Positions 3,522 through 17,883 of a stretch of 64,000 nt of DNA are shown here, in pieces. Below the pieces are notes generated by a model. That model was given only the letters and a program-made list of their open reading frames with translations. It was not told the DNA's origin and did no database searches. The DNA comes from Chloroflexota bacterium (GTDB taxonomy: Bacteria; Chloroflexota; Anaerolineae; Anaerolineales; Villigracilaceae). Location: the NCBI GenBank assembly GCA_026390015.1, contig JAPLGS010000139.1:186001-250000 (forward strand). The letters run 5' to 3'. The position numbers and the translations under genes were made by a program. Numbering within the stretch: position 1 is the stretch's first letter; each line of letters begins with the position of its first letter.

Positions 3522-6251
3522 TCAACTCAACGCCAGCTGGATCGCCCGCTCCATCGTCATGGACTTGCCGTCAGCCCAGAGTTTATTGAACTCCGTTTCA
3601 ACGAGCATGGCGCGCAATTGAGCAACTTCCTTGTCGTATGCCATTACTTCATAGTTTGCCATCGGTGAACCGATTTTCTCGCGCAAGGCTTCTGCCGCGC
3701 CAAGGAGTTTTAGCGCGCGCTGGGGCTCTTCCTCTGTAATGGCGATAAATGCAAAACATTCCAGTTGATTTGCGATGGCTGGGCGATGGCCTAGATCCTG
3801 CCAGCCTATAATAGTTTCGTTATAAATTTTCTTTGCCTGATTTAGATCCCTTGTATCGCGGGCAATGTGACCGAGTTCGCTCATCATTACCAGTTGAAAA
3901 TTCTTGTTTCGTAAGCGCTTAAAAATATTCAACGCGTCTTCAAACAATGTTTTTGCAGTTCCGTAGTTACCTTGACGACTCTCGGCTATGCCCATGCCCA
4001 TGAAAATTAGTCCAGTCTGAAACGACACGGGTAATTCGCCTATCAATCCCTTGAGTTTTTCAGAATATTTTTGCTTTTCTTTTAAATCGCCTTTGCTTGC
4101 GGCAACTCTTGCCATGTTTGCATAAGCCATGCCCAGCCCAAACTTGTCATCAACCTCGTCAGCAAATATGCTTAACCCTTCCTGTGCGGCTTCTGCTCCA
4201 CCAGGCGCGTTAGAGAATGTTGAGGCCGTAAAGTACATTTCCAGGCTAAAGCCCAGGATGAGTTTGTCGCCTGTGAAGCGTGAGATGGTGATCGCTTCCT
4301 GTAAAGCCTGTATGACCAACGGCAAGTTTCCCTGCCCCAAAGCAACCAGGCTTTCGGCATATAGTGCCCTGGCAATAAATTTTTGGCGCTGAACATGAGC
4401 GCTTCCATTCAAAGGCGGTAAGGACTTGGTTTGTTCAATGGCTATTTTGACCAATGCAAGACCCTCGGTTTGATTGCTCATCCAGCCTGTGATGATACAA
4501 AAATTCCCAGCTAAATGGACGGCATTTTCAACATGCTTTTCCAGCCCCCATTCCAAGGCAGCGCGGAGATTCTCAAGTTCGTCATCGACTCGGTCTCGCC
4601 AGTCAAACAAATCGGGCAAACGGAATCCATTCCACATTTTTTCCGAAAGGTCGTCGAAGTAGACGAAGTGCCGATCACGCATCGCCGACGATTGCTTCGC
4701 CTCGAATAGCTTTTCCCTCGCGTATTGCCTGATCGTCTCCAACAGGAAATAGCGCATTTCGCTGCCACGCTCTTCGGTCACCACCAATGATTTGTTGATG
4801 AGTCCTTCGAGATTTTCAATGGCATTCGGGTCTTCTGAGATTGCTTCAAGTGCATCCAAAGTCCAGCCGCCAATGAATACAGAAGCGGTGCAAAGTAGTT
4901 GCTTCTCTTCTTCTGAGAGTAAGTCATAACTCCAATCGATCAACGCCCGCAGAGTCTGTTGACGCGGCAACGCGGTGCGACTTCCACCCACAAGCAAACG
5001 AAACAAGTCATCGAGCCGCGCGGCAATCTGGTCGGGGGAAAGCAATTTCGTCCGCGCGGCGGCGAGTTCGATCGCCAAAGGAATGCCGTCGAGACGGTGG
5101 CAGATTTGAGCAACGGAAGAAGCGTTTGAGTCGGTGAGAGAAAATTTTGAATTGGCAGCGCGGGCACGGTCCACGAACAGGCTGGCTGATTCGGAATCCG
5201 CAAGCGAAGGAGTCCGATACGCCATTTCGCCCGCGATACCCAACGCTTCACGACTGCTGGCAAGGATTCTGAGTCCCGCGCATTGATGCAAAAGATCGTT
5301 GGCGAGTTTTGCGCAGGCGGCGATGAGATGCTCGCAGTTATCGAGAATGAGTAGAAGCTTTTTGTCGCGCAGATAATCAGTGACGAGATTTACCAACGGA
5401 TTGAATGGCAGTTCTTGTAAACCAAAAGCTTGGGCGAGGGCAGGGATAATTTGCGATTCATCGCTGAGCGGAGCGAGCTCGATCATCGACACACCATTGG
5501 AAAAATTAGGGAGCAATTGCGTGCCGACTTCAATTGAAAGACGGGTCTTGCCAGTGCCGCCTGAACCCGTGAGAGTGGCGAGACGTGATGAAGAAAGAGC
5601 TGCTTTGATCTCGGCGATCTCTTTTTCGCGGCCAATAAAAGATGTCAGTTGAGCGGGGAGGTTGTTCGGTTGTGTATCAAGCGATTTGATCGCGGGAAAA
5701 TCTTTTGGTAGATCAGGCACATTGACTTGATAGAGTCGCAAAGGCGCACGCAAATCTTTGAGACGATGTTCGCCCATATCCTGCAAGGTCACATCGCTGG
5801 GCAAAGCATTTTGCAACAAGTCGTATGTTGTCTGTGTGAGAAGCGTTTGTCCACCGTGCGCAGCGGACATCACACGCTGCGTGGAAGCAATGGTGGCATA
5901 GCCTTCGTATTTGCCATCGGGCAATATTTCGGCTGTGCCAGTGTGCAATCCCATGCGGGCGCGTATTGCGACCGAGACCTCCGAGTTCTTTAAGAACTCG
6001 GAGGTCTGAAGTCCTCGCTGCGCTGTCAATACAGCGCGCAATCCATCAATGGCATTATGGAACGCCGCGCTGAACGAATCACCTACGATCTGAAAGACGT
6101 AGCCATGATTGGATTCAATCACGTCACGCAAAATTTCATCATGCCGCGCGTGTGAGATCGCCATCGCTTCGGGCTGTTCCTGCCATAAGCGGGTACTGCC
6201 TTCAATGTCAGTAAACAGAAATGTTACGGTGCCAGACGGAAGTTCGCTCAT
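3522..6251 (-). CDS. Class III adenylate/guanylate cyclase with NB-ARC-type ATPase and TPR domains
   Basis: A 909-residue regulator. Residues 1-165 form a class III nucleotide cyclase domain with the metal Asp in FTDIEGST (Asp15) and a second in IVGDSF. An ATPase of the STAND/NB-ARC type follows, with a P-loop GSGGTGKTR near residue 230 and Walker B LLLILDNCEHL near 300, and then a helical TPR region from about 560. Such proteins likely couple ligand sensing by the repeats to cNMP synthesis. A perfect palindrome (5975-6007) lies in frame inside the cyclase domain. It is divergent from a cNMP-binding protein gene, which suggests a signalling pair. Confidence 0.9.
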   Translation of the reverse strand: MSELPSGTVTFLFTDIEGSTRLWQEQPEAMAISHARHDEILRDVIESNHGYVFQIVGDSFSAAFHNAIDGLRAVLTAQRGLQTSEFLKNSEVSVAIRARMGLHTGTAEILPDGKYEGYATIASTQRVMSAAHGGQTLLTQTTYDLLQNALPSDVTLQDMGEHRLKDLRAPLRLYQVNVPDLPKDFPAIKSLDTQPNNLPAQLTSFIGREKEIAEIKAALSSSRLATLTGSGGTGKTRLSIEVGTQLLPNFSNGVSMIELAPLSDESQIIPALAQAFGLQELPFNPLVNLVTDYLRDKKLLLILDNCEHLIAACAKLANDLLHQCAGLRILASSREALGIAGEMAYRTPSLADSESASLFVDRARAANSKFSLTDSNASSVAQICHRLDGIPLAIELAAARTKLLSPDQIAARLDDLFRLLVGGSRTALPRQQTLRALIDWSYDLLSEEEKQLLCTASVFIGGWTLDALEAISEDPNAIENLEGLINKSLVVTEERGSEMRYFLLETIRQYAREKLFEAKQSSAMRDRHFVYFDDLSEKMWNGFRLPDLFDWRDRVDDELENLRAALEWGLEKHVENAVHLAGNFCIITGWMSNQTEGLALVKIAIEQTKSLPPLNGSAHVQRQKFIARALYAESLVALGQGNLPLVIQALQEAITISRFTGDKLILGFSLEMYFTASTFSNAPGGAEAAQEGLSIFADEVDDKFGLGMAYANMARVAASKGDLKEKQKYSEKLKGLIGELPVSFQTGLIFMGMGIAESRQGNYGTAKTLFEDALNIFKRLRNKNFQLVMMSELGHIARDTRDLNQAKKIYNETIIGWQDLGHRPAIANQLECFAFIAITEEEPQRALKLLGAAEALREKIGSPMANYEVMAYDKEVAQLRAMLVETEFNKLWADGKSMTMERAIQLALS
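5975..6007. repeat. Perfect palindrome inside cyclase coding sequence
   Basis: Two 16-base arms (AGACCTCCGAGTTCTT and its exact complement) are separated by one base. The element is read in frame as TSEFLKNSEVS, about residues 82-92 of the cyclase, between the metal-binding loops and the MGLHTG strand. The core CCTCCGAGTT/AACTCGGAGG recurs in the intergenic hairpin at 37584-37620. Confidence 0.9.
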
Positions 6252-6398: not shown

Positions 6399-7358
6399 AT
6401 GAATCGTATTCTCGAAACCTTCAAGATCAAACCTGGCGAAGAGTGCATGTCTGCGCTGCTGGTTGGGTTGATGTTATTCACCTCGGCAGGCGCGGCCATC
6501 GGAGGAAATGCCACCGAGGCTTTGTTCTTTGCCCGCTTCGGTGTTGAATTCCTGCCGGGCATGTATGTGATATTGGGTCTGTTTACATTCGTCACATCCA
6601 TGGCGATCACGATCGTGATGGGGCGTTTTTCGAAACAGAGATTATTTATCGCTTTGCCATTGATCATCGGCTTTGCGCTGATCGCAGAGCGCATGATCCT
6701 CCTGCTCAATATCAAATGGTTCTTTGCGGTGATGTGGCTGGTGATGAACGTGATCGGTGGCCTGCAAGGTTTGCTCATATGGGGACTGGCAGGCGCGGCT
6801 TGTGATACACGTCAAGCGAAACGGTTATTCCCACTTTTTAGCGCAGGTAGTATTTTAGGAACAGTCCTCGGCGGCTTGTTGACGCAGCCGATGGCGCGCT
6901 GGCTTCATTCAGAAAATTTATTACTTGTTTGGGCTGGCACGTTATTTATCGCATTTTTCCTTAGCCGTTCATTGATCGGAAAAACAACGCCTGCCATGGG
7001 AGCATCCTCCTACAAAAAGCAACCGAGTATTTTTATTGAAATGCAGCGCGGCTATAAATTTGTACGTCAATCGCCGATCATGCAGTGGGTTTCTAACAGC
7101 GCAATTTTATTTTCAGTCTGTTATTTTTCATTGGCGCTGCCATTCTCGCGCGGTGTGACGGCGCAATTCCCAGATGCAGACCGCCTCGCTGGGTTTCTCG
7201 GTTTGTTTCAAAGTATCACCACCATCGTCGCTTTGATCGCCTCATTGTTTTTTGCCAATCGTCTTTTTGCCCGTTTTGGCATCATGCCCATGCTCCTGCT
7301 TTTCCCGATCATTTATTTCATCGGATTCAGTGTGCTGTCATTTGCTTTATGCAAATGA
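6399..7358 (+). pseudogene. Major-facilitator/NTT-like membrane protein, 5' part of a frameshifted gene
   Basis: This frame encodes 319 residues with about eight to nine hydrophobic helices, starting MNRILETFKIKPGEECM. It resembles the N-terminal transport-like domain of proteins that fuse an MFS/ADP-ATP-carrier-like module to HEAT repeats and a cyclic-nucleotide domain. It stops at 7358 in ALCK, exactly where the downstream frame (from 7349) continues the membrane domain with WMQGIAGTAWQALFNVV. The two frames differ by one base, so this is a broken or mis-sequenced single gene, or a split gene with a 10-base overlap. Confidence 0.7.
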
Positions 7359-9433
7359 TGTGGATGCAGGGCATCGCGGGCACTGCCTGGCAGGCGCTCT
7401 TCAATGTCGTCCCTTACGAACAGCGCGATCAAGTCCGCGCATTTATCAGCGGTGTGCCTGAGCAAGCAGGAACTTTTATTGCAGGTTTAATTCTTGTAGT
7501 AGGTGAGCAGGCATTGAATCCGGGGCAACTGTATATTATTGGTCTCACTGCCGCCGCGCTTTTGGTTTATATCATTTGGCGCGCCAGCAAGGCCTATGCA
7601 AACGCTTTAGTCGAAGCGCTGCGTGCGGGTCAGCCGCAAATGTTCGTGAGTGAAGAAGAACCCTTCGGAGGATTTCACACTGACGCCGCGGCAGTCTCTG
7701 TTGCCATCAAGGGCATGAATGATTCAGATATGGCAACCCGCCTCGTTTCAATTGAGATTCTGGGCAATCTATCTCTTCCCGAAGTAACGAATAATCTAGT
7801 TACCGCACTTGCGGATGACGATGCGCTGATTCGTTCTGCTGCCCTGCGAGGACTTGCCCGCGCCAAGGCATCTTCTGCTTTATTGGATATTGCCGCGAGT
7901 CTTTCCGACCCTGAGCCTGATGTGCGACTACAGGCAGTGGATTCCATTCGGCAGTTGTCTCGCTATTCGCGCGGAGTCTCCGTGCAGATTGAGTCGTTGC
8001 TTGTTGATCAAGATCCTCAGGTGCGTGCCCGTTCCGCACAAACCTTATTGAGTTTCGGCGCTCATCCCAAAGCGAAGAATATTCTGCACGGAATGGCTGC
8101 CGACTCAGATCCTATAATAAGAGTCTATGCCTTGAATGCCTTGGCAGAATGTGGGGATGACTCTGCGTTTGAGTTGGGATTATCCGCCCTTGAGGATGCA
8201 AATCCTGTTGTGCGAAAGACCGCACCTGCTATGTTGATCGGCATTGACCCACAACGCGCTATGGATATACTCATCCGACATCTAAACGATGATGATAGTT
8301 ATGTCCGCAGGGCATTGGCGGATGCACTCGGAAAAATTGGAATCCCCGCGCTTGATTCATTAGTAATTGCATTAGCCAACCCAAGCTATGAAGATGGCGC
8401 ATTGATGGCGCTTGAATTATTACCTGCGCAGAAAGCAAGTCTGCAAATTCGCGCACATGCAATTGGTACAGCAAAATCTGCGCTGCACTATCATCAACTG
8501 GCGCTTGGACTTGCTCAAAAATTTGGGTGGACCGTTTCAGGTGACGGACGAAATCAACTCTTGACCGAGTCACTGCACGACAAAGCCCGTCGCAGCGGAA
8601 TCAATTCCTTGCGGGCAATTGGTTTGATCAAATGCCGCGATGCTGTGGCAGTTGCAATTGAAAACTTGCGCAGCCGTGAAGCCTCTCAAAGGGCGAATGC
8701 GCTTGAAGTCCTTGAATCAATTGGCGAGGTGGAAATTATCCGCCCGCTGTTGGCGTTATGGGAATCTGGAGAGTCAACATCCGCACCCTTGCCTGAACAC
8801 TGGCTTTTGGAATTGCTGCACGATCCTTATTCCTGGCTGCGCGCTTGTGCTGTCTTGGTCGCCGCCAGTTCGAAAGATCAGGAAATTATTTCCGCCCTTC
8901 AAATTCTTTCCCATTCAGACCCCGATTCAATTGTTCGTGATGTTGCAGAAAAAGCACTTTTAGGAGATCGACTTATGGATACTCTTGCCACCATACCACT
9001 CATGGAACGCATCCTCTTTCTGCGGCGTGTACTCACCTTCGCAGACCTCTCGCCTGCGGATTTGAAACAGGTGGCGGCGATCACAGCCGAAGCGGTCTTT
9101 GCGGATGGCGATATTCTTGCTCACCAAGGCGAGCCTGGTGATGAAATGTATATCGTTGTTTCGGGAGATGTGAGGGTGATGATGACTTCTGGTGATCAGA
9201 AGGAAGCCCGTGAAGTAGCCAGAAGATCTTCGGGTGATTACGTGGGAGAGATGGCGATCATCAACCGCGAGCCGCGTATTGCCACGCTTGTTGCTTCGGG
9301 CACGGTGCGTACATTGTGCATCGAACAAAAAAAGTTTGAAGGCATCCTGCGCGAACGACCAGAGATCAGTCTGGCGATGATGCGTGTATTATGTAGAAGG
9401 CTAAAAGAAGCCAATGAACAAGCGATAAAATAG
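7349..9433 (+). pseudogene. HEAT-repeat and cyclic-nucleotide-binding protein, 3' part of the frameshifted gene
   Basis: A 694-residue frame that opens with the remaining membrane helices (about residues 1-85), then about 400 residues of HEAT-like repeats (ALRGLARAKASSALLDIA and similar) and a C-terminal cNMP-binding domain from about 560. The phosphate-binding cassette is intact (GEMAIINREPRIATLV, with the Arg that contacts the cyclic phosphate). If the halves are joined, the protein would be a membrane-embedded cNMP receptor of about 1010 residues. The ATG at 7349 overlaps the upstream stop, so re-initiation is possible. Beside the divergent cyclase gene it is a natural effector candidate. 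Confidence 0.75.
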
Positions 9434-9827: not shown

Positions 9828-10127
9828 TTACTCAACAGCGTAAATATGGACTTCTTTTTCTAGCCTATTTTCCAACTTATCCTTTTCCACTTCGATATCA
9901 TAACGAGATTGCAGGTTTATCCAGAAACGTTCTGAGAGGCCAAAGAATAAGGATAGACGAAGAGCCGTATCAGGTGTGATCGCGCGCTTACCCAGCACGA
10001 TCTCATTGATGCGTCGCGGCGGTACGCTAATATCCTTGGCAAGCCTATACTGGCTGATGCTCATCGGCTCCAGAAATTCTTCGAGCAGGATTTCACCCGG
10101 GTGAATAGGTGGTAATTTATTAGCCAT
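9828..10127 (-). CDS. higA: HigA family antitoxin, XRE-type
   Basis: A 99-residue protein starting MANKLPPIHPGEIL, the typical opening of HigA antitoxins, with an HTH around residues 20-60 (SQYRLAKDISVPPRRINEI) and the ending ALRLSLFFGLSERFWINLQ characteristic of the family. It neutralises HigB and represses the shared promoter. The start is the ATG at 10127 with AAGGAGATTAAC upstream; a longer reading to 10178 would run into the toxin gene and lacks a ribosome site. The toxin gene stops 11 bases upstream. Confidence 0.93.
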   Translation of the reverse strand: MANKLPPIHPGEILLEEFLEPMSISQYRLAKDISVPPRRINEIVLGKRAITPDTALRLSLFFGLSERFWINLQSRYDIEVEKDKLENRLEKEVHIYAVE

Positions 10128-10137
10128 GTTAATCTCC

Positions 10138-10419
10138 TTAGTGATAATCTGCGATTGCCACATCGTAACAATCGCCATTCTTCCATCGAAAACAAATTCG
10201 CCATTGCTGGTTGATGCGGATACTGTGTTGACCTTCGCGGTCGCCGCTCAATTTCTCCAATCGGTTTCCATGTGGGACTTTTAAATCATCCACCTTTTCC
10301 GCCGCGTCGAGAATCTCCAACTTCATTCGTGCCTTGCGTTGAATATCAGCTGGCAGGGAACGGGATCTCTGGCGTTGAAAGAGTTTTTCCGTCTCTTTAT
10401 CAGCGAAGGTTTTTATCAT
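10138..10419 (-). CDS. higB: HigB family toxin, RelE-type mRNA interferase
   Basis: A 93-residue RelE/HigB-fold protein, beginning MIKTFADKETEKLFQ and carrying the family strand HSIRINQQWRICFRW near its C-terminus. HigB toxins cut mRNA on the ribosome. The order toxin then antitoxin is usual for higBA. The ATG lies only seven to eight bases after a consensus -10 box and has no ribosome site, so the message is probably leaderless. Confidence 0.93.
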   Translation of the reverse strand: MIKTFADKETEKLFQRQRSRSLPADIQRKARMKLEILDAAEKVDDLKVPHGNRLEKLSGDREGQHSIRINQQWRICFRWKNGDCYDVAIADYH

Positions 10420-10592: not shown

Positions 10593-10627
10593 GTCTGGAA
10601 ATTAAGTATTCACTTGCCATAATTAAC

Positions 10628-10689
10628 TTGACAAACTGGGCGAGAAGGATATAATCTGACTAACTTTATTCAGTGAATAAAGTTAGTCA
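10628..10689 (+). promoter_or_regulatory. Promoter and 33-bp perfect operator of the ROK gene
   Basis: TTGACA (10628-10633) and TATAAT (10650-10655) are 16 bases apart. Directly downstream a perfect palindrome occupies 10657-10689: TGACTAACTTTATTCA, one central G, then the exact complement. Transcription would start inside it, at about 10662, so a bound repressor would block initiation. The ROK start codon follows three bases after the palindrome. Confidence 0.85.
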
Positions 10690-10691
10690 AT

Positions 10692-11903
10692 ATGACCCAC
10701 CCTACTGGAAACCGCGAACTAATCAGAGCGATCAACCGCTCACATGTCTTGAATGCAATCAAGACATATGGCCCGGTTGGACGGGCTGACATCGCGCGCC
10801 GCACTGGCTTAAGCCCGGCCACAGTCACGTCCATCTCCGCGAAGTTGATCTCCCAGAACCTCGTCTTTGAAAAGTCTGCCGGGGATTCCAGCGGCGGGCG
10901 TCCTCCCATATTGCTGGTCATTAATCCAAGGGGTGGATATGTGGTCGGCATAAAATTAACTGAGGTCAACGCGGTCTGCGCATTGACCGACCTGGAAGCC
11001 ACTGTGATCGCAAAGGCCTCCATGCCGCTCTCCGGCCACAACCCAATACGGGTCGTGGAGGATCTGGCACACATGGTCACCATCTTTATACGTGAACAGA
11101 AGATATCCAAGAAACAATTGCTTGGTGTCGGCGTGGGTGTGGCTGGCATTGTCGATGCCGATGAAGGCATCCTGCGCCAATCCCCCATCTACGGCTGGGA
11201 CAACGTTCCTCTCCGTCAAATGCTGCAAAGCAAATTGAATGTTCCTATTTATATTGAAAATGATGTGAATACACTGACCCTTACCGAGAGGTGGTTTGGC
11301 CCTGGTCAGGGCGTGGACAATTTCCTAACCGTCACGGTCGGACGCGGAGTCGGTCTGGGAATTGTCGTGAACGGACAATTCTATCGCGGCCAGAACGGCG
11401 GCGCTGGTGAATTGGGGCACACCACCATTGACCCGAAGGGACCTTTGTGTGCCTGCGGTAAACATGGATGCCTGGAGGCCTATGTGGGCGATCCTGGCTT
11501 GGTCCGTGCAGCCAATGAAGAATATGAACGTGGACATCTCTCCGTGAAAGTTGATACGATTGAGGAATTACTGCAGCTGGCTCAAAGTGGCGACTCATCT
11601 GCAATAAAGATTTTCAAAAAAGCCGGCACCATTCTCGGAATCGCAATTGCAAATCTGATCAACCTGTTCAACCCAAAGAAGATCATCATCAGCGGAGAGG
11701 GAACCCGCGAAGGCGACTATCTTTTCATTTCCATGAAGGAGTCCATCCAGCAGAACACCATGCCTGGATTATTTGATCCGAAGATCGTTGAGATCATCCC
11801 ATGGGGTGACGATGTCTGGGCACGCGGCGCGGCCGGTCTGGTGCTGCGCGAATTATTCGAGTCACCCATCCATAAACAGATCCCGACTGCAGCAACCATG
11901 TAA
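10692..11903 (+). CDS. ROK family transcriptional repressor
   Basis: A 403-residue protein with an N-terminal winged helix (about 15-70, including GRADIARRTGLSPATVTSIS) and a ROK sugar-kinase-like domain (about 80-395) with the zinc motif CACGKHGCLE near residue 254. ROK repressors of this XylR/NagC type bind sugars or sugar phosphates and control transport and catabolic genes. The palindrome directly before it, and a half-matching site before the ABC genes (11919-11943), suggest it represses itself and the downstream operon. The inducer is probably an isomalto-oligosaccharide product or glucose derivative (inference). Confidence 0.9.
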   Translation: MTHPTGNRELIRAINRSHVLNAIKTYGPVGRADIARRTGLSPATVTSISAKLISQNLVFEKSAGDSSGGRPPILLVINPRGGYVVGIKLTEVNAVCALTDLEATVIAKASMPLSGHNPIRVVEDLAHMVTIFIREQKISKKQLLGVGVGVAGIVDADEGILRQSPIYGWDNVPLRQMLQSKLNVPIYIENDVNTLTLTERWFGPGQGVDNFLTVTVGRGVGLGIVVNGQFYRGQNGGAGELGHTTIDPKGPLCACGKHGCLEAYVGDPGLVRAANEEYERGHLSVKVDTIEELLQLAQSGDSSAIKIFKKAGTILGIAIANLINLFNPKKIIISGEGTREGDYLFISMKESIQQNTMPGLFDPKIVEIIPWGDDVWARGAAGLVLRELFESPIHKQIPTAATM

Positions 11904-11918
11904 TTTTTTTGCCCTGAG

Positions 11919-11943
11919 TTATTTTACTCAGCGAATAAAGTAG
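11919..11943 (+). promoter_or_regulatory. Second, imperfect ROK operator before the sugar ABC operon
   Basis: The right half CAGCGAATAAAGTA matches CAGTGAATAAAGTT of the palindrome at 10657-10689; the left half TTATTTTACT is diverged. It lies 15 bases after the ROK stop and about 80 bases before the binding-protein start. No clear separate -35/-10 pair was seen, so the operon may be transcribed from both the ROK promoter and a weaker local one. Confidence 0.55.
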
Positions 11944-12024
11944 GAGGCACAAGCCATCTGACAAACAAAAACATCCTAATTTGACCGTCCTCAAAACTCA
12001 AAACCATTAAGGAGAAATAGAGAA

Positions 12025-13347
12025 ATGAAATCCAATCGTATCGCAATCCTGATATTTAGTTTGATCATCATCACGGCTACCATCCTGGCAGCCTGCGCAC
12101 CTGCTGCAACCCCAACAGAATCACCGGCTGTGGCAGTGACAGAAGCCCCCGTTGTTGCTACTGAAGCCCCGACCGAAGCGCCAGTTGTAGAACCTGTCAC
12201 CCTTCAGTACTGGCACACCCACAGCGATGCTGAAGCTGCCCAATTAGATCAGGTCATTGCGGCGTTCGAAGCCGCCAACCCTGGCATCAAAGTTGAGTCC
12301 ACGCGCTATGCCTACAGTGATTACAAAACCGCACTTCTCACCGCGATTTCAAGCGGCGCAGTTCCCGATGCAGCACGCCTTGACATTGCCTGGGTTTCTG
12401 AATTTGCCGACCAGGGTGCGCTCACCCAGCTAGATGGAAATCTTCCTGATTTCGAAGCCATCATTGCAGATACTTTCCCCGGCCCGCTATCCACAAACGT
12501 CTGGCAGGATCACTATTACGGTATGCCGTTGGATACCAATACCCAGGTATTGCTCTGGAACAAGAGTGTATTCGAAGCGGCCGGTCTCACCGCCGCCCCT
12601 ACTACAATGGAAGAATTTGCAGCAGTAACTTGCCAGCTGACTGATGCAGCCAAGAAAACGTACGGCTACGCAGAAGGCGGCACATATTTCTGGGCTCCCG
12701 CGCCTGTCTTTTATGCAATGGGCGGCAAGATCACAGACGAAAAGATCACCACAGCAACCGGTTACGTTAATGGCGCTGATAGCGTCGCAGCCTTCACCAT
12801 GCTCAAGGATCTATACGATCAGGGCTGCTTGTCTCCGAATCTTCTTGGCGGTGGTATCGCAACCGACGCCGGCCATGCCGAAGGCACCTATGCCATGATC
12901 ATTGACGGCCCCTGGATGGTCGATATTTACAAGGGCAACTATCCAAACTTTGAAGTCAACTTTGCCCCCGTCCCCAGCGGCCCTCAGGGAACCACCAGTT
13001 CAGTCGTCGGTGGAGAAGATGTGGTTGTGCTTGCAGATTCAAAAAATCAGGAAGCCGCCATGAAGTGGGCAGCCTACCTGCTTAGCCCTGATGCTCAGAA
13101 GATGATGGCCTCAGTGGGTCAAATGCCAACCCTCGCTTCCCTGGTTGGAGATCCTGCCATGCCCGCATACTTCGCCGTCTTCCAGGAACAATTAAAGACC
13201 GCCCAGGCGCGCGTTCCACATCCCAAGTGGTCTGATATGGACAACGCCATCAATAATGCCTACCAACGCATGTTGAAAGGCGACCAGACTCCTCAGGAAG
13301 CACTCGATCAGGCCGCCACTGAGATCGATGCCCTGCTTGGGAAGTAA
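12025..13347 (+). CDS. ABC transporter sugar-binding lipoprotein, family 1
   Basis: A 440-residue extracellular solute-binding protein. A lipoprotein signal ends in the lipobox ILAAC (Cys near residue 23), followed by a Pro/Thr/Glu-rich tether to about residue 55. The mature part (LQYWHTHSDAEAAQLDQVI onward) is the MalE/UgpB-type fold that captures oligosaccharides and passes them to the two permeases downstream. The ATG at 12025 has AAGGAG ten bases upstream. Context points to alpha-1,6-linked gluco-oligosaccharides as ligand. Confidence 0.92.
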   Translation: MKSNRIAILIFSLIIITATILAACAPAATPTESPAVAVTEAPVVATEAPTEAPVVEPVTLQYWHTHSDAEAAQLDQVIAAFEAANPGIKVESTRYAYSDYKTALLTAISSGAVPDAARLDIAWVSEFADQGALTQLDGNLPDFEAIIADTFPGPLSTNVWQDHYYGMPLDTNTQVLLWNKSVFEAAGLTAAPTTMEEFAAVTCQLTDAAKKTYGYAEGGTYFWAPAPVFYAMGGKITDEKITTATGYVNGADSVAAFTMLKDLYDQGCLSPNLLGGGIATDAGHAEGTYAMIIDGPWMVDIYKGNYPNFEVNFAPVPSGPQGTTSSVVGGEDVVVLADSKNQEAAMKWAAYLLSPDAQKMMASVGQMPTLASLVGDPAMPAYFAVFQEQLKTAQARVPHPKWSDMDNAINNAYQRMLKGDQTPQEALDQAATEIDALLGK

Positions 13348-13362
13348 AATAGATTATCATCG

Positions 13363-13432
13363 TCAAGCCCTTGCTATGGCAGGGGCTTGACCGAAACCAG
13401 AAAGGCTGCGGGTGGACACCCGCCCGCAGCCT
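13363..13432 (+). promoter_or_regulatory. Two RNA hairpins between binding protein and permease genes
   Basis: Hairpin one pairs CAAGCCCTTGC with GCAGGGGCTTG around TATG (one G-U). Hairpin two pairs GGCTGCGGG (from about 13405) with CCCGCAGCC (to about 13432) around a ten-base loop. Neither has a U-tract. Such structures often protect the upstream message and lower permease expression relative to the binding protein. Confidence 0.6.
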
Positions 13433-13440
13433 TCCAAACC

Positions 13441-14334
13441 ATGCGCAACAAAAGCCGTCATTCCGACATCATTCCAGCAATGATCTTCCTGCTGCCCGGG
13501 TTGATCCTGTTTGCCTTGTTCTTTCTTGGCCCAATGGCCTATTCCCTGCGAATCAGCTTCTTCGAATGGAAGATCGTTCACCCGGAACGATCCATTTTTG
13601 TGGGATTTGAAAATTATCAACACGCATTATCCGATCCAATTTTTCAACGCGCAGTCCTGAATACACTTGCATACACGGTCATCACGGTGGTAGTAAAAAT
13701 GATCCTGGGGCTCTCCGTGGCCTTGCTACTTAACCAACAACTGCCAGGACGGACCTTCTTCCGCGTGGCATATTACCTGCCGGTGATCACATCCTGGGTA
13801 ATTGTCAGCCTGCTGTTTGAATATATGTTCAACGGTCAGGCCGGTCTGGTGAATTATATCCTCAAGGATTTCCTGCACCTTATCCCCAAGGACATCCTCT
13901 GGTTCGCCGATGAATACCTGACGCTCGTCCCCATCATTCTGCTCGACATCTGGAAAGGGATCGGATGGGCCGCAATCATTTTCCTGGCCGGACTGCAGGC
14001 TATTCCCGCAGAATTGTATGAAGCCGCGCGCGTGGACGGCGCTGATTCAACCACCCAGTTACGCTATATCACCTGGCCATTGCTCGGTCCAACCACTGTC
14101 TTTCTGGTAGTGGTTCTGGTGATCGGCGGGTTGAATGCCTACGTTCCATTTCAATTAATGACCAACGGTGGAGATCCACTTGATCTGACGCACTCCGTTC
14201 TGACATTAATGTACGAGGCCACCTTTGGCCGACTTGACTTTGGCTATGGCGCGGCCATCAGCTATTTGTTGACAGGATTTGTTTTCGTTATCAGTCTGAT
14301 CGAACTTCGTTTGATGAGACAGCGGGCAGATTAG
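13441..14334 (+). CDS. Sugar ABC transporter permease, MalF/UgpA type
   Basis: About 297 residues with six membrane helices and the permease loop EAARVDGADSTTQLRYITWP, which contacts the ATPase. The ATG at 13441 is chosen because the longer reading from a TTG at 13387 would translate through the second hairpin; neither start has a strong ribosome site, so the start is uncertain. It follows the binding protein and precedes the second permease by one base. No ATP-binding subunit is encoded nearby, so a shared MsmK/MalK-type ATPase elsewhere is expected. Confidence 0.9.
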   Translation: MRNKSRHSDIIPAMIFLLPGLILFALFFLGPMAYSLRISFFEWKIVHPERSIFVGFENYQHALSDPIFQRAVLNTLAYTVITVVVKMILGLSVALLLNQQLPGRTFFRVAYYLPVITSWVIVSLLFEYMFNGQAGLVNYILKDFLHLIPKDILWFADEYLTLVPIILLDIWKGIGWAAIIFLAGLQAIPAELYEAARVDGADSTTQLRYITWPLLGPTTVFLVVVLVIGGLNAYVPFQLMTNGGDPLDLTHSVLTLMYEATFGRLDFGYGAAISYLLTGFVFVISLIELRLMRQRAD

Positions 14335-14335
14335 C

Positions 14336-15172
14336 ATGAACCGAAAATCACAGCGAAATTTTGATAAAGTTGTTAAACTCACTGTCCTGGCCCTGGGATT
14401 GGGACTTGTGCTGCTCCCCATCTGGTATATGATCATCACCTCGTTCAAACCCCAAACAATGATCTTCGAACTTCCCCCGCGTCTATGGCCGCAGGTTTGG
14501 ACATTAAAGAACTACATTGCTGCGCTTGGCAAGGACAAGTTCGGCTTGTATTTTCTAAACAGCGCCAAAGTGGCGGTCATCAGCACGCTGCTAACCGTCC
14601 TGATCTCCTCCATGCTGGCTTTTGTTTTTGCCCGCCTGCGTTTTCGCGGCAAGGAAACTTTATTTTATATTTTCCTGCTCGGCATGATGGTTCCGCCGGT
14701 CATGCTCATCATCCCGCAATTCATTGTTGCAAAGTGGCTGAATCTGTTCAACCATACTGGTCTGATTCTGGTGTACACCGCGATGAACATCTCCATGCAG
14801 ACCTTCCTGCTGCGTGGCGTTTTTGAAAATGTACCACGCGATCTCGAGGAAGCAGCCCTGATCGATGGCGGCAGCCCGTGGACAATTTTCTGGCGCATCA
14901 TCCTGCCCCTATCATGGCCCGGCATTTCAGTGGTGATCATAAATACCTTTCTATACAGCTGGGAGGAATTCGCCTGGGCTAATGTTGCCATTAAGAATTC
15001 CAGCCAGCGTACCCTGCCCATCGCCATCGCGCTTTTTCAAAGCGAACATTTGACCGAATGGGGACAGGTCTTTGCAGCCTCATTGGTTGCACTTGTCCCG
15101 GTATTGATTATTTTCATCATCTTCCAGCGCCATTTTGTGCAAGGCATCTCCACGACCGGTCTAAAAGGTTAA
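14336..15172 (+). CDS. Carbohydrate ABC transporter permease, MalG/UgpE type
   Basis: A 278-residue membrane protein with six helices and the EAA loop LEEAALIDGGSPWTIFWRII. It pairs with the upstream MalF-type permease to form the channel. Its ATG at 14336 follows the preceding stop by one base, and the GH66 gene starts one base after its own stop, so the genes are tightly coupled. Confidence 0.93.
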   Translation: MNRKSQRNFDKVVKLTVLALGLGLVLLPIWYMIITSFKPQTMIFELPPRLWPQVWTLKNYIAALGKDKFGLYFLNSAKVAVISTLLTVLISSMLAFVFARLRFRGKETLFYIFLLGMMVPPVMLIIPQFIVAKWLNLFNHTGLILVYTAMNISMQTFLLRGVFENVPRDLEEAALIDGGSPWTIFWRIILPLSWPGISVVIINTFLYSWEEFAWANVAIKNSSQRTLPIAIALFQSEHLTEWGQVFAASLVALVPVLIIFIIFQRHFVQGISTTGLKG

Positions 15173-15173
15173 T

Positions 15174-16766
15174 ATGCGTATCGTTGATTTTTATCCCTCG
15201 CAGGGAAGTTATTCACCCGGCGAAATTGTCACGTTGTTCATTGAAGTTGAAACACCTGCTCCCAAAAACCTCTCACTCCGAATTTTCATTCAACATCTCG
15301 CCGAACAATCCATCGTTCTCGAACATCAATGTCAAATTAAATCTGGATCTCAAACAATTCAAATTGAATGGGAACCTCCTAAAACACCTGCGGGATATTC
15401 GGCACGTTTGTCGATCGATCCTGACATTCAGGCTTCCACGGCATTCGATGTACTCAAGAGTTGGGCCGATTTTCCCCGCTACGGATTTCTCTCTGACTTT
15501 AGCGCGTCTCGTTCAGATCCTGATGCTACCCTGAAAAAACTGATGCCTTTCCATATAAACGGGCTGCAGTTCTACGACTGGCAATATCGTCACGATCAAC
15601 TATTGGCTCCCACGGAAGAATATATTGACCCGCTCGGGCGCGCCATGTCGCTTGCCATTGTTCGAAAGTTGGTGGACACAGCCCACAGATACGGCATGGC
15701 GGCCATGCCGTATCTCGCAATCTATGCAGCCTCCGCTGATTTTTGGCGTGCGCATCCTGATTGGGCGCTGTATGATGAAGCAGGGAAACCCATTGCCTTT
15801 GGGGAGAATTTCCTCGGCCTGATGGATCCATCAGCCGGCAGTTCCTGGAGTCGTCACCTGCTAAATGAAGGAACCCGCACGTTGAAAGGAATTCCCTTCG
15901 ATGGTCTACATATCGATCAATATGGTGACCCAAAAAAGGCATGGAATGCTGAGCATGAGGGTGTGGATCTACCGCGCGCATTTGCTGGTTTCATCCAATC
16001 CGCTTCTGATCAACATACTGATAAAACGATCCTGTTCAACGCGGTCGGCAACTGGCCGATCGAAACCCTGACGGAATCGGCAGTTGACTTCATGTATATT
16101 GAGGTCTGGCCGCCTGATCTCGAGTATCGCCGTCTTGCTGAGATCGTAGTGAACGCGGTTCGCTTATCCCATGGCAAGGCGGTTGTGATCGCCCATTATC
16201 TACCGGCCGATCGCCCGGCAAATAATCTTTTGGTAGACGCGGTCATCTTAGCCTGCGGCGGTACGCGTATTGAATTGGGCGAGAATGCGCGGCTGCTGTC
16301 CGACCCCTACTTCCCCAAGCATGAAGAACTCTCAGAAGACCTGTATGCAAATTTGAGATTGCTTGCAGATTTCGCTGTCCGCAATGGAGAATGGATAAGA
16401 CCATACACATTATCAGCAGCTGAGAAGGAAGCGTGGTCGAATGGCGAATTAAATCCAAAATTCATATCCATTGACGAAACCATTTTGCCCCTGTTGAGGC
16501 GTCAACCAAACCTGCTGATCCTTCATATGGTTAATTTTTCCAATCTCGATCTCCATCAGCAATGGGATGTGGTTCATTCCGCGCCAACACTACGCCAAAA
16601 TGTTGAAGTAAAGATTAAAATGCAGCGCTCGCCTTCTAAAGTCCTTTGGGATTGCCCCGAACAGCTTGAAGGAACACAAATTATAAATTTTGAATACTCC
16701 GATGGAGTGTTGACTTTCAATATTCCTCAAATCCATATCACAGGGTTGGTTGCCATCCATGAATAA
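15174..16766 (+). CDS. Glycoside hydrolase family 66, dextranase/CITase-like, cytoplasmic
   Basis: A 530-residue protein with an N-terminal beta-sandwich (about 1-95) and a GH66-type barrel beginning at RYGFLSDF. The expected nucleophile Asp is in FDGLHIDQYGD (near 248) and the acid/base Glu in FMYIEVWPPD (near 310). GH66 enzymes cleave or cyclise alpha-1,6-glucan (dextran). There is no signal peptide, whereas family members are usually secreted, so it probably acts on imported isomalto-oligosaccharides. The ATG at 15174 has AAAGG upstream. It overlaps the GH15 gene by eight bases. Confidence 0.85.
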   Translation: MRIVDFYPSQGSYSPGEIVTLFIEVETPAPKNLSLRIFIQHLAEQSIVLEHQCQIKSGSQTIQIEWEPPKTPAGYSARLSIDPDIQASTAFDVLKSWADFPRYGFLSDFSASRSDPDATLKKLMPFHINGLQFYDWQYRHDQLLAPTEEYIDPLGRAMSLAIVRKLVDTAHRYGMAAMPYLAIYAASADFWRAHPDWALYDEAGKPIAFGENFLGLMDPSAGSSWSRHLLNEGTRTLKGIPFDGLHIDQYGDPKKAWNAEHEGVDLPRAFAGFIQSASDQHTDKTILFNAVGNWPIETLTESAVDFMYIEVWPPDLEYRRLAEIVVNAVRLSHGKAVVIAHYLPADRPANNLLVDAVILACGGTRIELGENARLLSDPYFPKHEELSEDLYANLRLLADFAVRNGEWIRPYTLSAAEKEAWSNGELNPKFISIDETILPLLRRQPNLLILHMVNFSNLDLHQQWDVVHSAPTLRQNVEVKIKMQRSPSKVLWDCPEQLEGTQIINFEYSDGVLTFNIPQIHITGLVAIHE

Positions 16767-17883
16767 CCTATATCAACGCAGTATCGAAATTATTCTTGAA
16801 AATCAATCAGAGAGTGGCGGCTATATCGCCAGCCCAAATTTTCCGACCTATCACTATTGCTGGTTCCGCGATGGCTCTTTCATTGCCTATGCAATGGATC
16901 TGGCTGAGCAACACGAAAGCGCGCGTCGTTTTCATCAATGGGTGGCTGATCGCGTAAACGAACGCAGAGATCTGGTGCGCGCCAGCATCCTCAAAGTGCG
17001 TGCTGGCGAAAAATTGAATGAAGCGGACATCCTGCATACCCGCTATCGACTGGATGGTACCGATGGTGAACCCGGCAACTGGCCGAACTTTCAACTGGAT
17101 GGCTTTGGCACATGGCTTTGGGCGCTCAATGAACATCAAAAACAAAACCCTGCAATAAGGCTATCACAAGAGCTACTATCCGCAGCCGATCTTGCGGCTG
17201 ATTATTTAAGCGAACTCTGGATACTCCCCTGCTATGATTGCTGGGAGGAATTCCCAGACAATATTCATCCGCACACGATTGCCGCGATCTACGGCGGACT
17301 TATGGCATATTCCGAATTAACCGGTAAGAGCCATCCATTGGTGACGGATGCCATTCGAGATCAATTGCTTGTCGGTGCGAAACCATTCGGCCACTTTGTG
17401 AAATTTTCTGATTCCTCCGCCGTGGACGCAAGCCTGCTGGCGTTGGCAGTCCCATATGGTGTTGTAGCTCCCGACGATCCGATCATGCTCAAAACCGTGG
17501 AGCAGATTGAAGCGACTATCCTACACGGTGGAGGTCTTCACCGTTACGCCAAGGATTCTTACTACGGCGGTGGAGCCTGGATCCTGCTGACCGCCTGGCT
17601 GGGCTGGTACTACGCGGAATTATCGGCGGCGCGTCCTGACCTGGAAGCAGGGCTCAAACAAAAAATACGAACCTGCCAGACATGGATTGAATCAAGGGCA
17701 GATATGTTGTTTTTACCCGAGCAGATCTCTGAAAATCTTAATTTCCCCACTTATTTTTCAACCTGGATGGATCGCTGGGGCGAGGTTGCTTCGCCATTAT
17801 TATGGTCACATGCCAAATATATAATTTTGCAAGTTAGGACACTGCCTAGGTATTTAAATCCGCAAGATAAAAACATACAATAA
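16759..17883 (+). CDS. Glycoside hydrolase family 15, isomalto-oligosaccharide glucohydrolase-like
   Basis: About 374 residues forming an (alpha/alpha)6-type enzyme. The substrate motif YHYCWFRDGSF is near residue 30, the general acid Glu is in CYDCWEEFPD (near 160), and the general base Glu in FLPEQIS (near 320). The lack of a signal peptide and of an N-terminal domain resembles intracellular GH15 enzymes acting on short alpha-1,6-glucosides. The ATG at 16759 overlaps the GH66 stop; an upstream TTG at 16750 is less likely. It would release glucose from GH66 products. Confidence 0.85.
   Translation: MNNLYQRSIEIILENQSESGGYIASPNFPTYHYCWFRDGSFIAYAMDLAEQHESARRFHQWVADRVNERRDLVRASILKVRAGEKLNEADILHTRYRLDGTDGEPGNWPNFQLDGFGTWLWALNEHQKQNPAIRLSQELLSAADLAADYLSELWILPCYDCWEEFPDNIHPHTIAAIYGGLMAYSELTGKSHPLVTDAIRDQLLVGAKPFGHFVKFSDSSAVDASLLALAVPYGVVAPDDPIMLKTVEQIEATILHGGGLHRYAKDSYYGGGAWILLTAWLGWYYAELSAARPDLEAGLKQKIRTCQTWIESRADMLFLPEQISENLNFPTYFSTWMDRWGEVASPLLWSHAKYIILQVRTLPRYLNPQDKNIQ

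Follow-up and report, generated by a model that had tools for sequence, protein, structure and literature searches.

Gene organization of the locus

The window analyzed here, a 64,000-nucleotide stretch of contig JAPLGS010000139.1 from a Chloroflexota bacterium (assembly GCA_026390015.1), carries at 10692-17883 on the + strand a six-gene operon that appears to be devoted to α-1,6-glucan oligosaccharides. The coordinates and gene set agree with those given in an initial annotation, and the genes encode, in order, a ROK-family protein, a solute-binding protein (SBP), two permeases (TM1 and TM2), and glycoside hydrolases of families GH66 and GH15. The features are listed below.

10628..10655, +: sigma-70-type promoter, TTGACA-16-TATAAT (12/12 consensus bases)
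10657..10689, no strand: 33-base palindrome, candidate ROK operator (perfect 16-base arms, 1-base center)
10692..11903, +: ROK-family regulator with N-terminal winged helix, NagC/Mlc-like (PF00480, 1.6e-63)
11921..11941, no strand: second, imperfect palindrome copy between the ROK and SBP genes (3/21 mismatches)
12025..13347, +: lipoprotein SBP, TdCIBP type (PF01547, 3.9e-41)
13387..14334, +: permease 1, MalF/UgpA-like (PF00528, 1.1e-13)
14336..15172, +: permease 2, MalG/UgpE-like (PF00528, 1.1e-19)
15174..16766, +: GH66 endo-dextranase-like enzyme, predicted cytoplasmic, 530 aa (PF13199, 1e-103)
16750..17883, +: GH15, isomaltose-glucohydrolase type, 377 aa (PF00723, 2.1e-24)

The intergenic gaps are, in gene order, 121, 39, 1, and 1 bases. 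Coupling by overlaps, as first described, holds for GH66 and GH15, which overlap by 17 bases with a TTG start for GH15 (an ATG lies three codons downstream), but not for TM1-TM2 and TM2-GH66, where the genes stand one base apart. The TTG of permease 1 is the first start in its frame and is uncertain. The host genome (4.31 Mb in 177 contigs; completeness 95.2%, contamination 3.9%) contains a single GH66, a single GH15, five GH13 matches, and one OB_MalK match, and no GH31 was found; by these families, in searches that did not extend to GH49 and GH70, the operon appears to be consumer-only. The nearest named relatives, judged by the operon, are Chloroflexota, chiefly Anaerolineae.

The GH66 and GH15 enzymes

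The GH66 protein scores 348 bits with PF13199 (cut-off 23.7) in a continuous match over residues 12-519, and has the Asp and Glu expected at the catalytic positions. These residues, D248 and E310, correspond to D312 and E374 in the dextranase of Thermoanaerobacter (5axg), and both are conserved in all 27 GH66 sequences aligned. The deposited mutant complex 5axh has G at position 312, consistent with a catalytic D312, and E374 is presumably the acid/base. An AlphaFold2 model built with 27 sequences (mean pLDDT 93.6) retrieved 5axg as the top Foldseek match (TM 0.90), followed by a Flavobacterium endodextranase and CITases. The sequence suggests an endo-type enzyme that cuts α-1,6-glucan inside the chain or opens a ring. 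In fold, full-length match, and catalytic positions, it resembles the dextranases 5axg, 8iu8 (Flavobacterium johnsoniae), and 3vmn (Streptococcus mutans), but unlike these exported enzymes, it has no export signal. Export signals were called throughout from hydropathy, with a threshold of 2.2 for the best window of 11 residues, rather than with a trained predictor. The case that could have overturned the initial annotation on this point, a signal peptide added by a start further upstream, is excluded because an in-frame stop at 15162 lies upstream of the ATG with three codons between them, and the enzyme is predicted to be cytoplasmic.

The closest solved relative of the GH15 protein is the isomaltose glucohydrolase KfIG of Kribbella flavida (5z3a-f), with 43% identity over 346 aligned positions and 1.7e-68 for 5z3d, while the next distinct solved molecule, a dextran dextrinase, scores 1.4e-4. 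After correction for a 20-residue chain offset, all 11 KfIG residues checked are kept (Y48, D56, E178, E179, Y290, Y291, P334, E335, Q336, W350, and A358), including Trp350, the residue that counts above all for an assignment to EC 3.2.1.205; the KfIG general base Glu335 corresponds to E324. In KfIG, E178 is the general acid and Y290 a second base. The catalytic acids that had been called visible are all present, namely D248 and E310 in GH66 and, in GH15, E324 together with Glu at both positions equivalent to KfIG 178 and 179. In Kribbella, the KfIG gene presumably neighbors that of an isomaltosidase of family GH31, both serving a pathway for a cyclic tetrasaccharide; here the GH15 stands beside GH66 instead. 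No export signal over the hydropathy limit was found in 41 GH15 loci, which include one copy of the window and one of another locus (highest value 1.92, L049). Eight of the 11 residues, all but E178, E179, and Y290, are named in PMC12446779, where Trp350 is described as spatially common to an α-1,6-specific glucodextranase. The GH15 protein matches the isomaltose-glucohydrolase type.

The solute-binding protein and permeases

The closest solved relative of the SBP is TdCIBP of Tepidibacillus decaturensis (9xf5/9xfu; 6.8e-90, against 1.8e-42 for the next), whose structures contain cycloisomaltooctaose or isomaltoheptaose and which binds both cyclic and linear α-1,6-glucans (PMC13084667, JBC 2026). 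When the 15 ligand-contact residues named in that paper were mapped onto the SBP, 13 proved identical at 40% overall identity, whereas control proteins 27-32% identical to TdCIBP kept 6 (4qrz), 6 (8art), and 4 (3k01, with two positions outside the alignment), and six SBP paralogs from the same genome kept 1-4; paralogs that were too short (L018) or matched mainly at the N terminus (L022-L025) were left out of the count. The contacts to Glc3 and Glc4 (Glu66, Arg115, Asp117, Asn168, Trp217, Trp290, Glu322, and Arg389) are identical in all eight cases and invariant in 23 aligned SBPs, the exception standing further out (L097, with Q for Glu322). The N terminus is a hydrophobic stretch ending in LAAC, taken as a lipobox, and was read by eye as a lipoprotein signal. 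Permeases 1 and 2 score 4.5e-27 and 2.5e-36 against the MalF and MalG models, respectively, both below cut-off, and with the TdCIBP-type SBP they would form the proposed oligosaccharide importer.

Conservation among relatives

One scan of genome contigs with the window GH66, a method that reaches close relatives only, gave 69 loci, of which 38 are Chloroflexota or actinomycete-labeled (L028-L064 and L082). The order (ROK)-SBP-TM1-TM2-GH66-GH15 fits all 38, the five-gene core being complete in 29 and cut by a contig end in nine; ROK stands in front of 16 complete cores. One cultured carrier, Ornatilinea apprima (L035), has all six genes. Among the other 31 loci, GH66 is alone in 23 (19 titled Bacteroidota), three have SBP-TM1-TM2-GH66 (L065, L075, and L079), two have GH15 followed by SBP-TM1-TM2-GH66 (L095 and L096), and three show other arrangements (L083, L084, and L085). 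Of 301 genomes drawn from the phylum, 13 contained a GH66 match, and in eight it exceeded the cut-off; the seven other listed genomes of the same genus contained none. In two contigs titled as Actinomycetes metagenome-assembled genomes (L043 and L044), the operon is nested among Chloroflexota copies, which points to transfer or mis-binning.

Regulator and palindromes

The ROK protein has the ROK domain, MarR/HTH matches at its N terminus, and a palindrome nearby, as expected of a ROK repressor; it scores 3.5e-76 and 2.1e-67 against the NagC and Mlc models, both below their curated cut-offs. The palindrome at 10657-10689 begins one base behind the promoter, and two bases separate it from the ATG of ROK, an arrangement that would suit a self-regulating repressor, and it is likely the operator of this regulator. 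The promoter scan as a whole gave no excess (11 matches against a shuffle mean of 9.5). No shuffled window contained a match to the second palindrome copy. With a motif derived from the window and loci that are related to it, the site in front of ROK outscores every one of 100 shuffles in 14 of 18 loci, as against just 10 of 32 for the site in front of SBP. A regulon beyond the operon is not claimed: the palindrome core (at most two mismatches) occurs at six places in the genome, including the two in the operon; outside it, the best place, with one mismatch, adjoins DnaJ-like and alanyl-tRNA-synthetase-like open reading frames (ORFs), identified by eye, without sugar genes, the remaining three have two mismatches each, and a reversed control pattern gave one forward and one reverse match.

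Proposed pathway and its alternatives

The operon probably represents a regulated system for the use of α-1,6-glucan oligosaccharides, which would be imported whole and cut to glucose inside the cell. The ROK repressor would sit on the palindrome behind its own promoter, and probably on the second site before the SBP gene, and would release the DNA in response to the sugar or one of its breakdown products. Linear or cyclic isomaltooligosaccharides with some four or more residues would be captured by the lipoprotein SBP, and the two permeases, powered by an ATPase encoded elsewhere, would import them whole; the cytoplasmic GH66 would then cut inside the chain or open the ring, and GH15 would free glucose from isomaltose and short products. 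Whole uptake and opening inside, as originally proposed, are supported because the SBP is of the TdCIBP type, the only GH66 found in the genome lacks an export signal, and GH15 is of the isomaltose-glucohydrolase type. The pathway is not new, however, and the ligand may be linear or cyclic, given that Trp275 of TdCIBP is lost from the SBP.

Several observations weigh against the proposed pathway. The GH66 protein is only 25-30% identical to characterized enzymes in the alignments seen. Two of the 15 SBP contacts are changed, Trp275 to aspartate and Asp403 to asparagine. In 13 of the 29 complete cores, no ROK match was found before SBP, although four of these have short left flanks. Finally, the transporter ATPase is absent from the operon. 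The only OB_MalK match of the genome is on contig 20, together with two GH13 matches and SBP, permease, and ROK matches; we infer that the importer most likely borrows this ATPase, and the TdCIBP operon likewise has none (PMC13084667).

One alternative is that the operon is specialized on cyclic isomaltooligosaccharides, CI7-CI9, made by other bacteria, with GH66 above all a ring opener. The affinity of TdCIBP is higher for the ring (KD of 0.045 μM for CI7 and 0.32 μM for IG7; PMC13084667), the 13 contacts kept include Asp64, which is bonded to Glc1 in CI8, and a cytoplasmic endo-enzyme would be pointless if isomaltose alone were imported. Against this, the tryptophan that stacks on Glc1/Glc8, Trp275, a residue shared by the published CIBPs (PMC13084667), has no counterpart in the SBP, whose loop holds no tryptophan. 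The position is D, A, or S in the clade of the window, W in all Bacillota SBPs compared, and variable in the clade with exported GH66 described below. With the ring-stacking residue lost, the ligand is at least as likely to be a linear isomaltooligosaccharide as a ring. Moreover, the genome has no second GH66 and hence no CITase, and none was found near the operon in the 38 loci of relatives, within the flanking DNA covered. We regard a ring specialist as rather unlikely.

It is more improbable still that GH66 works in the cell mainly as a CITase-like transglucosylase making rings or longer chains. CITases do belong to GH66 and superpose at TM 0.89-0.91, but the top sequence and fold matches are dextranases, and the hydrolytic GH15 is, judged by its position, co-transcribed. 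In characterized CITases, a CBM35 inserted in the catalytic barrel sets the ring size (PMC5408701); the continuous PF13199 match leaves no such insert, on which an assignment to EC 2.4.1.248 would depend, and the CITase alignment ends at residue 343-344. The missing insert does not settle the question, since the PDB contains short chains of 576-592 residues named CITase (9sje-9sjh), for which no open-access literature was found. An operon for maltodextrin or starch fragments with α-1,6 branches, with the SBP as a maltodextrin binder, is scarcely tenable, because the nearness of the permeases to MalF/MalG/Ugp models and the broadly maltose-binding SBP family are outweighed by the match of the SBP and both enzymes to α-1,6-specific proteins, and the contig 20 region is the better candidate for such a role.

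The import-and-cut pathway has precedents in Bacillota. In PMC13084667, T. decaturensis is proposed to take up cyclic and linear isomaltooligosaccharides and to break them down with an intracellular dextranase and an isomaltose glucohydrolase, and the same paper cites Paenibacillus sp. 598K as importing CI and having, inside the cell, a dextranase that CI induces; the window GH66 resembles this enzyme, by description and not by sequence, as a predicted intracellular dextranase that may act on imported CI. Unlike the window host, sp. 598K also makes CI outside the cell. Its intracellular dextranase we take to be a GH66 enzyme. The absence of an export signal from the window enzyme is confirmed, but neither a cytoplasmic GH66 nor the intracellular route is new (PMC13084667). 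In the cluster of T. decaturensis (L095), genes for GH15 (46% identity), SBP (39-40%), the permeases (44% and 47%), and GH66 likewise lie together, in the order GH15-SBP-TM1-TM2 followed by the GH66 genes. T. decaturensis differs in having a large secreted GH66 (a CITase in PMC13084667), further GH66 genes (four matches in all), and a 46GT named in that paper, and in the Trp275 of its SBP. At L095:8252-13013 (strain Z9), three consecutive GH66 genes are found, one with a hydrophobic N terminus, one without it but, in this assembly, split into two ORFs, and one of 965 aa with a signal-like N terminus; the split gene may encode the intracellular dextranase of PMC13084667.

The outline of the pathway and an intracellular GH66 with its import route were known from Bacillota (PMC13084667); added here are the apparent consumer-only form in another phylum and the predicted switch of GH66 compartment between clades. 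Open-access searches on Anaerolineae isomaltooligosaccharide use, cytoplasmic GH66 dextranase, and, by title, Chloroflexi dextranase found no literature on this form, and one on Ornatilinea and dextran gave only a paper about microbial mats. The analysis extends the proposed import pathway for α-1,6-glucan to a second phylum, where it takes the shape of a compact operon that includes a candidate operator. SBPs without Trp275 would probe the basis of ring versus chain preference in binding proteins.

Predicted location of the GH66 step in related clades

The GH66 tree comprises 70 rows, after removal of copies (L001 and L005), the third piece of L065, which was under the score limit, and sequences that were fragmentary, short, or broken in frame (L034, L046, L055, L062, L063, L082, L094, L096, L095_1, and L095_3); L062, with a hydropathy of 2.09, is slightly under the limit. 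In the clade of the window, 20 of 20 rows lack an export signal (support 100/99), whereas in a second Chloroflexota clade with the same operon, 13 of 13 have one (support 100/99), as do the Bacteroidota relatives in the tree. Of 32 genomes of relatives, Tepidibacillus excluded, 30 contain exactly one GH66 match. The exceptions are G308, whose second match falls below the cut-off (20 bits), and G330, where a C-terminal fragment at a contig end gives a second match. With one GH66 per genome, the sole enzyme is predicted to be cytoplasmic in one clade and exported in the other, and since the operon is the same, the compartment of the cutting step has apparently switched. The tree requires five such changes with strict labels and three after L075 is called exported (its N terminus read as that of a lipoprotein) and L002 (incomplete start) and L004 (possible Tat motif) are set aside. 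The branch that would order the two clades is weak (88/57), and the tree gives no direction.

It is quite possible, and we advance this tentatively, that endo-cutting moved across the membrane within one operon lineage, the window clade importing and then cutting, and the other cutting and then importing; the inside-cutters would be scavengers of dextran fragments and cyclodextrans released by others, keeping all of the sugar, with an SBP pocket diverged to match. Such natural pairs, with GH66 inside or outside and the same partner genes, would allow private and public digestion of one polymer to be compared. Arg91 and the S63/D64 pair of the SBP were considered as a marker of a cytoplasmic GH66: position 91 is R in the window clade versus P in the exported clade. 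They were rejected as a general rule because three phylum-mates in which no GH66 signal peptide was detected (L098, L099, and L100) have T, A, or E at position 91.

A third form occurs in another Chloroflexota genome (L115; G235, contig 41, 2175-14858), where ROK, a 1510-aa protein, SBP, two permease-like ORFs, GH15, and GH31 are found in that order, the GH31 with an N-terminal domain like that of 1,3-α-isomaltosidase. The 1510-aa protein has a hydrophobic stretch at its N terminus and joins a GH15 region resembling dextran dextrinase (9ju0, 7.6e-80) to a GH66 region (5axg, 4.9e-152). It is apparently secreted and is perhaps a single enzyme that both forms α-1,6-glucan out of starch and cleaves it to allow uptake.

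Possible mobility of the operon, and neighboring genes

In a blastn comparison with the closest relative, L028, the window aligns over 10626-17822 only (L028:5449-12649; 91.8% over 7,209 columns), a span that begins at the promoter and covers GH15 nearly to its end; none of the flanking DNA compared was aligned. The rpoB regions of the same genomes are 84.9% and 86.7% identical. Two serine recombinases adjoin the operon in L028. For that relative, the operon was likely transferred as a unit, which makes it a candidate mobile unit; with L029, operon (79.4%) and rpoB regions (78-79%) are alike.

Next to the operon, at 9828-10178 on the - strand, lies a HigA-family antitoxin (TIGR02607, 5.6e-31). 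At 6399-9433 (+), an ORF resembling TLC-type ATP/ADP transporters overlaps one with HEAT repeats and a cyclic-nucleotide-binding domain; the second starts with membrane-like sequence, so that the two may be one gene, and neither has a match in L028. A 909-aa protein encoded at 3522-6251 (-) matches nucleotide-cyclase, AAA/NB-ARC-like, and TPR domains.

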